From Inediibacterium massiliense (lineage in GTDB: Bacteria; Bacillota; Clostridia; Peptostreptococcales; Thermotaleaceae), in contig NZ_LN876587.1 of the NCBI RefSeq assembly GCF_001282725.1, forward strand, positions 1,173,695-1,237,694: 64,000 nt of DNA, read 5' to 3'. The translations under genes and the position numbers were made by a program. How positions within the stretch are numbered: position 1 is the stretch's first letter; every line of letters begins with the position of its first letter. Under the pieces are notes generated by a model that made no database searches, was not told the origin of the DNA, and was given only the letters and a program-made list of their open reading frames with translations. Positions 18,856-21,434 of the stretch are shown piece by piece.

Positions 18856-18907
18856 AAATTCACCTTCTCCTTAGTTGTCCTTTTGTATTGTAACATATTC
18901 CATCTAT

Positions 18908-19060
18908 TCAATCAATTTCATCATATTCTGCTTTTTTTATCTTTAAAGGAGCATATAAAATACCTTTTTCATATCCTTCTTTGATCCCTACCCTTCTCCC
19001 TATAGCATAGCCTAATAAAAATATTATTAAAAATATCATTACGTATAGTAGATAATTCAT
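18908..19060 (-). CDS. 50-aa single-helix membrane protein
   Basis: Reads MNYLLYVMIFLIIFLLGYAI then GRRVGIKEGYEKG and a short charged tail. It has one N-terminal helix (residues 3-20) followed by a basic, then mixed-charge cytoplasmic part. The ATG overlaps the stop codon of the upstream membrane gene (ATGA at 19057-19060), and AGGTGA lies 7 bases upstream, so translation is coupled. It ends the spoVK-GTPase-membrane chain. The pattern of a helix followed by GxxxGxxxG-like spacing suggests partner contact, but no family is recognised. Confidence 0.7.
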   Translation of the reverse strand: MNYLLYVMIFLIIFLLGYAIGRRVGIKEGYEKGILYAPLKIKKAEYDEID

Positions 19061-19632
19061 TTTAGTTCACCTGCCTTTAAAGGCTTTGTAATTTTTATAT
19101 ATATCCACTCAGTACATAAATAGCTTAGTAATATGATAAATATCTTTAATGGATCTAATAATATAAGTCCTATTCCTAAAATAAAACATGTAAGCAAAAC
19201 CTCTATTTTTCCAAATTCATTTGCAAAATTTTTATAACCATATTTATGATCATATTCTTGATCACATAAATCATCTATCAATTGAATCAAAAGGACACTA
19301 AAAAAAGAAGTTATAGTAAATAAAAAGGAAAATAATAAGCTATTGATCAAAAATAAAAATATATTTTCTTGATAAGCTTTTAATCTTGTAGGTAAAAAAT
19401 GATTCAAATCATGAAACATGCCAACCATATAAGCTGAGCTTAATAAAGTCACTGAATAATGAGTATTGAACCCTGTAGCCAATGAAAAAATAATAAGTCC
19501 ATAAGAAAGGATAGCCCCTGTATGTATATCTTTTAATTCTTCATCTATCACATCATCTAATAATTTAATGACTACTCCACATAAGATACATGCCCCTATT
19601 TTTGTAAAAGTATTATAACCTACGACAAACAT
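19057..19632 (-). CDS. UbiA-like polytopic membrane protein
   Basis: Protein of 191 aa with about six predicted helices. It carries two aspartate-rich segments, LLDDVIDEELKD and QLIDDLCDQEYDHKYG followed by YKNFANEFG. These resemble the DxxxD motifs that bind prenyl diphosphate and Mg2+ in UbiA prenyltransferases. At 191 aa it is about 100 residues shorter than usual UbiA members, so it may be a distant or reduced homologue. It overlaps the GTPase gene by 20 bp, with GGGAGG 9 bases before its ATG, and overlaps the 50-aa gene by 4 bp. A role in sporulation is inferred only from context. Confidence 0.6.
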   Translation of the reverse strand: MFVVGYNTFTKIGACILCGVVIKLLDDVIDEELKDIHTGAILSYGLIIFSLATGFNTHYSVTLLSSAYMVGMFHDLNHFLPTRLKAYQENIFLFLINSLLFSFLFTITSFFSVLLIQLIDDLCDQEYDHKYGYKNFANEFGKIEVLLTCFILGIGLILLDPLKIFIILLSYLCTEWIYIKITKPLKAGELK

Positions 19633-20200
19633 AGCTTTTTACCTCCCTAAATCCCTCTTTCGTAAGGGCTGAGATAGGGATAACATAGTGATTGATAAAT
19701 TTCCTTTGAAATTTTATGATTTCATCTTTTCTATCTAATAAATCTATTTTATTTCCTAAAATTACATATCCCCCTTGAGTCATTCCATACTTTGCCAACT
19801 GTTCATCTACCTCTTCAATATGATCATCTGTAAGATCAAATACATGAAAAATCACATGACTATTTTGGATTTGTTCTAAAGTTTGAGCCATGGCTCTTCT
19901 AATCTGTATATCTTTATGAATTCCATCTGTAAACCCACTACTATCCATCATAATGATTTCTTTTTTTCCCTTTATCATGTGAATTTCAAGCTTTATAGAT
20001 TGTAAACATTGGGTTTTATATGGAATAGGAGATGATAAGATTTTTTTTGCTTCCTCTAGGTCATATTCTTTTGTGTCCACCTTATGATTTATCTTTGTAT
20101 GTTCAATTTTTACTTTTTTAAGTCCTATATATTCTGCAAAGTTTAGTAAAAATAAAGTTTTGCCAGCATTGGGTTTTCCAATGATCAAGCATGTTTTCAT
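19613..20200 (-). CDS. Small Era-like GTPase
   Basis: P-loop GTPase of 195 aa with all five motifs: G1 GKPNAGKT, G3 DSSGFTDG, G4 GNKIDLLD and G5 SALTKEG; a G2 threonine is plausible near residue 60. It is a minimal GTPase without the extra domains of Era, HflX or EngA. It occupies the place where Bacillus has hflX between spoVK and ynbB. Its ATG overlaps the spoVK stop (ATGA), and GAGGAGG precedes it. It may act with the neighbouring AAA ATPase or the membrane protein; no known named family is assigned. Confidence 0.75.
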   Translation of the reverse strand: MKTCLIIGKPNAGKTLFLLNFAEYIGLKKVKIEHTKINHKVDTKEYDLEEAKKILSSPIPYKTQCLQSIKLEIHMIKGKKEIIMMDSSGFTDGIHKDIQIRRAMAQTLEQIQNSHVIFHVFDLTDDHIEEVDEQLAKYGMTQGGYVILGNKIDLLDRKDEIIKFQRKFINHYVIPISALTKEGFREVKSYVCRRL

Positions 20201-21126
20201 CCATCATCCTCCTCGGTGATATCTTCTCTTTTTAAAATCATTAAATCTTCTCTAGAAAAAGTTTTAGATTTTTTAAGCCTTACTGCTTGCTTTCTTATGG
20301 CTCTTTCTACTATATTCCTTACAAGTCTTGCATTTCCACTATTTAAAGAATCTTCTACTCTTTTTTGAGAAATAATTTTAGATATTTTGGCTTTTGCAGT
20401 CATAGATAATTCATATTGTCTTTTTTGAACCATAATTTCTCCGATCTGTAGTAGTTCTTCCAAAGTATAGTCTGGAAAATCTATATGAATAGGAAATCTA
20501 GATTTAAGCCCTGGATTGACTTTTAAAAATCTATCCATTTCTTCTTTATATCCTGCAAGAATTAATATAAAATCATCCTTATGGTCCTCCATTCCTTTTA
20601 CCAATGCATCTACTGCCTCTTTTCCAAAATCTTTTTCTCCTCCCCTTGCTAAAGAATATGCTTCATCAATAAACAAAATACCTCCTAAAGCTTTCCTGAT
20701 GTGATCTCTGACCTTTACTGCTGTATGACCTATATATTCTCCTACCAAATCGGCTCTTTCTACTTCTATCATATGTCCTTTTTCTAAAACCCCCATAGTA
20801 GAAAATATTTTTCCCAGTAATCTTGCTACTGTAGTTTTCCCAGTCCCAGGATTTCCTTTAAAAATCATATGTAATACTAAGGAATTTGCTGATAAACCTT
20901 CTTCTTTTCTCTTTTTTTGAATATAGATATAAGCCTGCAATTCTTTTGTGAGTTTTTTCACCTTATCTAATCCTATCAAGCTATCTAATTCCTTCATTAA
21001 AGCTTCTAATTCTTTTTCATCTTCTTTGTCATCTTGTTGTTGTATCATTTTTTGAATGGCATATTCTGTTGGAATCTTTCCTTCTTCTAAAAGCTCAAAT
21101 ACATGGGAATATTCTTTATTATGCAT
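20197..21126 (-). CDS. spoVK: SpoVK-like AAA ATPase (CbbX/CfxQ family)
   Basis: AAA+ ATPase of 309 aa. Walker A is GNPGTGKTTVARLL, Walker B is GGILFIDEAYSL, followed by sensor and arginine-finger segments (GLKSRFPIHIDF, NARLVRNIVERA). A coiled N-terminal part of about 60 residues precedes the ATPase. Its place next to hfq and its sequence fit stage V sporulation protein K, required for spore maturation in Bacillus. It is followed by three translationally coupled genes. GGGGTGA precedes the ATG. Confidence 0.88.
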   Translation of the reverse strand: MHNKEYSHVFELLEEGKIPTEYAIQKMIQQQDDKEDEKELEALMKELDSLIGLDKVKKLTKELQAYIYIQKKRKEEGLSANSLVLHMIFKGNPGTGKTTVARLLGKIFSTMGVLEKGHMIEVERADLVGEYIGHTAVKVRDHIRKALGGILFIDEAYSLARGGEKDFGKEAVDALVKGMEDHKDDFILILAGYKEEMDRFLKVNPGLKSRFPIHIDFPDYTLEELLQIGEIMVQKRQYELSMTAKAKISKIISQKRVEDSLNSGNARLVRNIVERAIRKQAVRLKKSKTFSREDLMILKREDITEEDDG

Positions 21127-21179
21127 TTTATCACCCCAAAACTAATTACTATAACACTATATGCTCAAAATAGAAAAAA

Positions 21180-21197
21180 GAGTAACTTTCGTTACTC
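21180..21197 (-). terminator. Terminator of hfq
   Basis: GAGTAAC (21180-21186) pairs with GTTACTC (21191-21197) around a TTTC/GAAA tetraloop, with T6 after it on the minus strand. The stem overlaps the hfq stop codon. Confidence 0.8.
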
Positions 21198-21434
21198 TTC
21201 ATCTTGTTTTTTTCCTAATGTTAAATTCATAGATTTTAATGGCGTAATAGTAGAGATAGCATGTTTATAGACCATATTTTGTTTTCCATCACTATCTAAC
21301 ACTACTGTATAACTATCAAATCCTTTAACCGTTCCTTTTATTTGAAATCCATTTACCAAATATACGGTAATGGGAACGCGTTCTTTTCTTGCTTGATTTA
21401 AAAATACATCTTGTATGTTAATTCCATTCTTCAT
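21192..21434 (-). CDS. hfq: RNA chaperone Hfq
   Basis: Sm-like protein of 80 aa. Sm1 ([37 protein letters not shown]) and Sm2 ([11 protein letters not shown]) motifs are intact. It forms hexameric rings that pair small RNAs with mRNAs. The ATG at 21434 starts MKNGINIQD; an upstream in-frame start at 21461 would overlap the purine-rich ribosome site and is rejected. It follows miaA by about 40 bases, the usual Firmicute order. Confidence 0.97.

Follow-up and report, generated by a model that had tools for sequence, protein, structure and literature searches.

We analysed a window of DNA (a stretch of 64,000 nucleotides, contig NZ_LN876587.1, positions 1,173,695 to 1,237,694) from Inediibacterium massiliense, whose genome of 3.5 Mb falls in the same genus group as genome G001 of our dataset. 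The minus strand, on which all features given below lie, encodes in this order miaA, hfq, spoVK, a small GTPase, a polytopic protein, a one-helix protein, and ynbB. We focus on the four-gene chain that starts with spoVK, regarded by the original prediction as a sporulation membrane complex not described before. It encodes SpoVK, an AAA+ chaperone of 309 amino acids (20197..21126), a dedicated small GTPase of 195 amino acids (19613..20200), a UbiA-like membrane protein of 191 amino acids with seven predicted helices and two aspartate motifs (19057..19632), and a protein of 50 amino acids with one helix, as read from its sequence (18908..19060). We named the polytopic protein UBI and the one-helix protein SML.

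Conservation and promoter of the chain

The four open reading frames overlap as predicted, by 4 bp (spoVK and GTPase), 20 bp (GTPase and UBI), and 4 bp (UBI and SML). The overlap between GTPase and UBI measured 20 bp in 23 of 25 loci and 23 bp in the other two, with start codons picked by rule that may be one codon off. The genes of the chain are under purifying selection: the ratio of nonsynonymous to synonymous substitution rates (dN/dS) ranged from 0.03 to 0.36 for all four in six species pairs (two of the 24 values, both of SML, were undefined, and some dS were near saturation). Since this overlap is nearly constant across loci and dN/dS is low, the chain is more than a chance arrangement.

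The candidate promoter of spoVK is of the sigma-E/sigma-K type. Its -10-like element, CATATAGTG (21155..21163), belongs to a block, G[CA]ATATGAT..TATAG, which lies just upstream of the ribosome site of spoVK and is conserved in most loci of families f1 and f3. We anchored the promoter counts on this block and left out the five of 29 loci that lack it (G001 and G013 in f1; G049, G487, and G456 in f3). Among the anchored loci, the dinucleotide AC stood exactly 17 nt upstream of the anchor in 10 of 13 in f3, with a further locus at 16 nt, and in three of 11 in f1, with two further loci at 16 and 18 nt, respectively. For this pattern (AC-N17-[CA]ATANNNT) the background of AC is 0.037 per position, and kinship inflates all such counts. 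In the window, the -35-like AC (21182..21183) has a spacing of 18 nt. In the available parts of the cited articles, sigma-E and sigma-K promoters of Clostridioides difficile have a common -10 type, with ATA or AC at -35 (PMC3789822), and spoVK of Bacillus subtilis has one sigma-E and one sigma-K promoter (PMC517825). The patterns support putative mother-cell (sigma-K-type) promoter elements upstream of spoVK, of the SigE/SigK type that the original prediction proposed to look for.

A terminator-like hairpin 3' of hfq (21177..21200) parts this gene from the chain. At the chain's end, ynbB has a sigma-A-like site (TTGATT-17-TACAAT, 18887..18915), of a kind no commoner than in shuffled sequences. 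The chain therefore looks like one transcription unit. A sigma-70 scan of the chain gave 11 sites against a mean of 14.9 in shuffles, i.e., no excess. The GTPase gene lies 78 to 242 bp from spoVK in five f3 loci, where it is preceded by ATTC-N15-CATATG at constant spacing (read by eye). None of the six gaps of f3 between spoVK and GTPase (or spoVK and UBI) contained an AC-N16-18 site.

Association with spoVK and sporulation

SpoVK of the window scored 423.3 bits with the profile TIGR02881 (cut-off 422.95 bits, passed by only two of 247 genomes of the order), and AAA and AAA_lid_6 were above the Pfam cut-offs. At 392 bits or more, SpoVK was found in 29 of the 247 genomes, forming one block of 392 to 423 bits; the next proteins below it, which are longer and CbbX-like, scored 319 bits at most. 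The GTPase profile (E-value 1e-15) matched 28 of the 247 genomes, all of them within the 29 with SpoVK. The exception is G491, whose spoVK locus we read directly and which has no GTPase frame; that G491, G483, and G495 were in the 247-genome samples without a match was deduced from equal sample sizes and handle order, partly without a printed row. Frames of about 980 to 1500 amino acids with tandem SpoVK/CbbX-like AAA domains (two or more) occur in G350, G432, G488, G365, and others; G350 has no match to spoIVA.

The chain is not a peculiarity of one strain. A search of 59 relatives gave a GTPase-like match in 41 genomes, with the dedicated type in 15 of these (39–100% identity) and a shorter relative in G013. 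Scanning named genomes with the UBI alignment yielded 15 loci, in Anaerophilus, Marinisporobacter (two), Thermotalea, Geosporobacter (two), Anaerovirgula, Natronincola, Alkaliphilus (four), two metagenome-assembled genomes, and the end of a plasmid record that repeats a Geosporobacter chain. This “plasmid” of Geosporobacter ferrireducens (L053, L129; G011:C2) copies the chromosomal chain with the same GTPase score and identity, and is perhaps the redundant end of a contig. UBI was present in 16 of 20 genomes of the family to which G491 belongs.

The chain did not prove general among Clostridia, across which the original prediction had proposed to survey it. In a class sample of 393 genomes we found SpoVK in 13, the GTPase in four, and UBI in three. 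All four GTPase genomes are among the 13 with SpoVK, and in each the GTPase adjoins spoVK. In eight GTPase-less loci of this sample, i.e., all the readable ones, spoVK is followed by a ynbB-like gene (by eye); the ninth, G083, was not counted. The GTPase was found outside SpoVK genomes in neither the order sample nor the class sample. What stands behind spoVK thus varies by spore-former lineage: ynbB directly, presumably HflX in Bacillus, or the module of GTPase, UBI, and SML.

We tested 55 genomes for the marker spoIVA and detected it in 48, among them all 31 with an inspected spoVK locus. The seven genomes without spoIVA had neither the GTPase nor a SpoVK of this type, so the chain is not one that sporulating bacteria lack and asporogenous relatives keep. 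Five genomes (G008, G028, G039, G483, and G495) have spoIVA and no match to SpoVK or to the chain; the module therefore follows spoVK rather than sporulation at large. Overall, the sporulation link of the chain is well supported.

Two genomes have a broken or split spoIVA. In G006 (G006:C1:1291918-1293394) two overlapping matches contain internal stops, perhaps from a frameshift or an assembly error. In G448, codons 1–404 and 400–492 are separated by about 109 kb on the same strand (G448:C28:19500-27500 and 127000-135500; L167/L168), and the 3' spoIVA piece contains the end of a frame of 631 amino acids whose start resembles, by eye, that of a serine recombinase. This arrangement looks like a skin-type excisable element. 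By eye, UBI of G448 matches that of Anaerovirgula multivorans (L045).

The GTPase and the membrane pair

The GTPase scored 40.1 bits with MMR_HSR1 (cut-off 21.9 bits). Its motifs G1 to G5 were aligned by eye (GxxxxGKT, T63, DxxG, NKxD, and SA), T63 and the glycine of G3 not being present in all 16 rows. B. subtilis presumably has the order spoVK-ynbA/hflX-ynbB, with HflX between spoVK and ynbB, in agreement with what the original prediction says of Bacillus. We rejected descent of the chain GTPase from HflX: TIGR03156 gave 40.7 bits against a cut-off of 216.75, matching the G domain only, the N-terminal domain of HflX was not found, and a true HflX (467.6 bits) is encoded elsewhere in the genome. 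Nor did the protein reach the NCBIfam equivalog cut-offs of Der (41.9 of 306.7 bits), Era (35.4 of 237), or Obg (33.9 of 300). In a midpoint-rooted tree with long branches, whose reference rows were labelled from the P-loop motif, the 30 chain GTPases lay on one side of a 99/99 branch, opposite five HflX, ten Obg, one Era, two Der domains, and one MnmE. In the open-licence literature we found spoVK neither together with hflX nor with ynbA.

Models of UBI were obtained with AlphaFold2 for the window protein (predicted local distance difference test, pLDDT, 83) and for an Alkaliphilus-type homologue with 26 sequences (pLDDT 88.8). The best Foldseek matches of the homologue model were Archaeoglobus UbiA homologues (probability 0.97, E-value 0.03, query TM-score 0.35), followed by digeranylgeranylglyceryl phosphate synthase (DGGGPS) and class I terpene synthases; with the window-protein model, UbiA came third (E-value 0.44), behind ABC transporters. 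VIA-align placed residues 1–167 of the homologue model on residues 80–273 of the UBIAD1 chain (127 residues, Z 5.2), an alignment that fits a UbiA core lacking the first and the last helix in the helix numbering that we assume. The top VIA-align rows of this model, MsbA and Gdx-Clo, were set aside as unrelated (Z < 6). For the window-protein model the best VIA-align matches were prenyl synthases (Z up to 7.4, residues 102–168); by the program's own note, such Z can reflect a common helical arrangement.

Aspartate motif 1 (DDxxD, residues 26–30, 19543..19557) and motif 2 (DDxxDxxxD, residues 120–128, 19249..19275) correspond to the UbiA-type pair (DxxxD, DxxxDxxxD), which is found in 25 of 26 homologues, the exception being G491. 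UbiA-type motifs of this kind bind Mg and diphosphate (PMC9385802), and some members of the UbiA superfamily use polyprenyl phosphate for envelope glycans (PMC11127046), according to the parts of these articles available. By contrast, UBI failed as a member of UbiA on size and helix number, on the motif 2 of UbiA proper, and in Pfam. Its models show seven long helices against nine of UbiA (counted from models only). That motif, Y-x5-K, lacks conservation in UBI: only four of the 26 sequences contain a Y-x5-[KR] of any sort between the aspartate motifs, at differing places, and eight of the 26, including the window protein, have it nowhere. The score with PF01040 was 19.5 bits against a gathering score of 34.2. 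Searches of PDB sequences with the UBI protein and the UBI alignment returned nothing usable. We also rejected a soluble prenyl synthase, since the 18-column motif match (E-value 0.0007, against 0.007 for the reversed control) is hardly above noise. By its models, UBI may resemble a shortened UbiA/isoprenoid-synthase fold with both aspartate motifs on one membrane face. “UbiA-like”, as in the original prediction, is a fair description, and we do not claim UBI as a member of the family. For C. difficile, a paper without the term “spoVK” tabulates a ubiA gene, CD0982, with the ratio 0.39 (PMC3789822).

With loop bounds set by us, 11 of the 13 Lys/Arg of the window UBI are loop residues on the same side as the aspartate motifs. 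From charges and models we infer that the conserved parts of UBI and SML would face the cytosol. SML has one helix followed by GRRxGxxEG, and a CPxC tail ends 10 of 12 aligned orthologues and is absent in the genus of the window. No family of NCBIfam matched SML, and Pfam gave one chance match (E-value 0.89).

UBI and SML behave as a pair, as expected from the original prediction. We inspected 31 spoVK loci, scoring the pair at 40 bits or more and SML at these loci only. The GTPase was present in 30 loci; UBI and SML were both present in 26 and both absent in five (G003, G009, G010, G013, and G088), and neither occurred alone. To explain this distribution, the SpoVK tree needs no fewer than three changes. 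UBI was not found elsewhere in the five pair-less genomes (E-value 0.001), with a profile that did match in the class sample and in the family of G491. In G491 the GTPase was lost and the UBI and SML frames are still open. Its motif 1 reads LNKEAEG against LDDEVDE in relatives, and its motif 2 reads GEDLLQ against DDLLD, two of the four aspartates being retained. DxxxD stands in both motifs in 25 of the 25 UBI beside a GTPase and is absent from the one UBI without. This single case is our strongest hint that the GTPase switch and the aspartate pocket work together.

Possible roles and relation to known systems

SpoVK itself is no longer without a role. According to a 2023 preprint (PMC10659427), it is a chaperone that, at the surface of the forespore, activates MurG, an enzyme of lipid II synthesis. 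Neither hflX nor ynbA is mentioned in the available text of this preprint, where we also found no partner that is a GTPase or a membrane protein. Its Fig. 3A, whose legend has a zinc-binding label (“ZnBd”), presents a selection of operons and may draw part of the chain. We found no paper in the open-licence literature describing the GTPase, UBI, and SML with spoVK. We rate the locus as a known sporulation gene with an undescribed module.

The three genes behind spoVK, found only in the spoVK carriers sampled, probably help SpoVK to build the spore wall. As for how, we tentatively favour, at somewhat less than even chances, a mother-cell sporulation operon in which UBI-SML and the GTPase form a membrane accessory of SpoVK that binds polyprenyl-(di)phosphate under GTPase control. 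SpoVK would switch on MurG at the forespore surface, and UBI and SML would be a membrane pair with its conserved parts towards the cytosol. The aspartate motifs of UBI, in a pocket like that of a trimmed UbiA, might hold Mg2+ and the (di)phosphate head of the polyprenyl carrier of the lipid II cycle. The GTPase could then act as the switch between the lipid-occupied membrane site and SpoVK, whose action on the synthesis of cortex precursors would thereby be confined to the places and times at which the carrier is at hand. We infer the physical contact between the proteins, the ligand, the sidedness, and the direction of the switch. A bolder version is rather doubtful: UBI-SML would read or gate polyprenyl (di)phosphate at the outer forespore membrane, the GTPase would relay this to SpoVK, and SpoVK would turn on MurG, i.e., a GTP-controlled, AAA+-linked bactoprenol sensor whose pocket becomes dispensable once the switch is lost, as in G491.

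Several observations weigh against the accessory that we favour. The fold matches of UBI are weak: no Foldseek E-value is below 0.001, the TM-scores of the UbiA and synthase rows are 0.35–0.45, and the best VIA-align hit of the homologue model (Z 5.9) is an unrelated transporter. The profile-profile match with UbiA has a probability of 18% (E-value 0.0013) and sets the second motif of UBI on the first of UbiA, and the match to soluble prenyl synthases rests on the 18 columns mentioned above. Lys11 and Lys163 are at helix ends on the opposite side of the membrane. The -35 element of spoVK is poor in the window's own family. In the class sample, both GTPase and UBI are missing from nine of the 13 genomes with SpoVK, and the GTPase and SpoVK can do without UBI-SML, since five loci keep them without the pair. 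G491 is a single genome whose UBI (40% identity to the first row of the alignment) and SpoVK (a long branch) are divergent overall, so general decay could explain its loss of aspartates; moreover, two aspartates of motif 2 survive.

The conserved aspartates (25 of 26 homologues) and the predicted likeness to UbiA and class I isoprenoid synthases would also suit a working enzyme. UBI might be a prenyltransferase or terpene-type enzyme making a spore-specific prenylated lipid, for a purpose like that of the sporulenes of B. subtilis, with SML as subunit, the GTPase as regulator, and lipid II uninvolved. Sporulene derives from a prenyl diphosphate. Curcumene-derived sporulene occurs in B. subtilis spores, according to the available parts of two articles (PMC13123705, PMC11708026). 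We nevertheless consider such an enzyme rather improbable: the Y-x5-K of UbiA is not conserved, the models have seven rather than nine long helices, and the position behind spoVK, rather than beside a pathway gene, would go unexplained. The decay of the motifs in G491 under an open UBI frame (n = 1) also agrees with an improbable non-enzymatic receptor, by which UBI-SML would tether the GTPase and SpoVK to the outer forespore membrane and the ligand of the aspartates would be a metal or the GTPase instead of a lipid. In humans, the UbiA protein UBIAD1 reportedly binds a partner enzyme and protects it (PMC9314443), yet Asp-rich motifs in pairs typically mark Mg-diphosphate sites (PMC9385802).

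Plain synteny would make the three genes tenants, with a separate role (e.g., ribosomal or envelope), of an old miaA-hfq-spoVK-ynbB neighbourhood, as HflX presumably is in Bacillus. The interval behind spoVK is indeed a place where genes come and go, since the ynbB-like gene follows directly in the GTPase-less loci, with nothing assignable between in the eight read by eye, and the gaps before the GTPase in the five f3 loci also favour this explanation. However, the GTPase kept to SpoVK genomes in both samples, the sigma-K-type elements and the hfq terminator would make the chain a unit of its own, and even the gapped loci have ATTC-N15-CATATG at constant spacing before the GTPase. We regard synteny alone as a slim prospect.

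The accessory of SpoVK that we favour bears on how a sporulating cell turns on the supply of cortex precursors at one of its membranes. If it is true, a process can be assigned to three unannotated families, SpoVK acquires a GTP input as well as partners in the membrane, and the natural loss of the GTPase in G491 gives a direct genetic prediction. The bactoprenol sensor, if real, would amount to a hitherto unknown kind of sporulation checkpoint, and its GTPase and its reduced UbiA-type membrane protein would each represent a new family.

The chain can be compared with four known systems. It resembles SpoVK of B. subtilis in that its first gene passes the TIGR02881 cut-off and in a promoter type that agrees with the sigma-E/sigma-K control reported there (PMC517825), whereas a GTPase and a membrane partner are not in the SpoVK-MurG account for B. 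subtilis, as far as its available text goes (PMC10659427). HflX/YnbA of Bacillus is also a TRAFAC GTPase and presumably occupies the same place. The chain GTPase differs from it in matching only its G domain (40.7 of 216.75 bits), in standing apart in the tree, and in coexisting with a separate HflX. The UbiA superfamily (UbiA, DGGGPS, UBIAD1, and the polyprenyl-phosphate phosphoribosyltransferases) provides the best Foldseek matches of the UBI homologue model and has a similar pair of aspartate motifs at helix ends on one membrane side. Its members have nine helices, about 290 amino acids, and Y-x5-K, whereas UBI has seven predicted long helices, 191 amino acids, no conserved Y-x5-K, and a Pfam score below threshold. 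Finally, the class I trans-prenyl diphosphate synthases (PF00348) resemble UBI in a QxxDDxxD-like second motif and in the VIA-align match over residues 102–168, but they are soluble, whereas UBI is a membrane protein whose profile match to them spans 18 columns.

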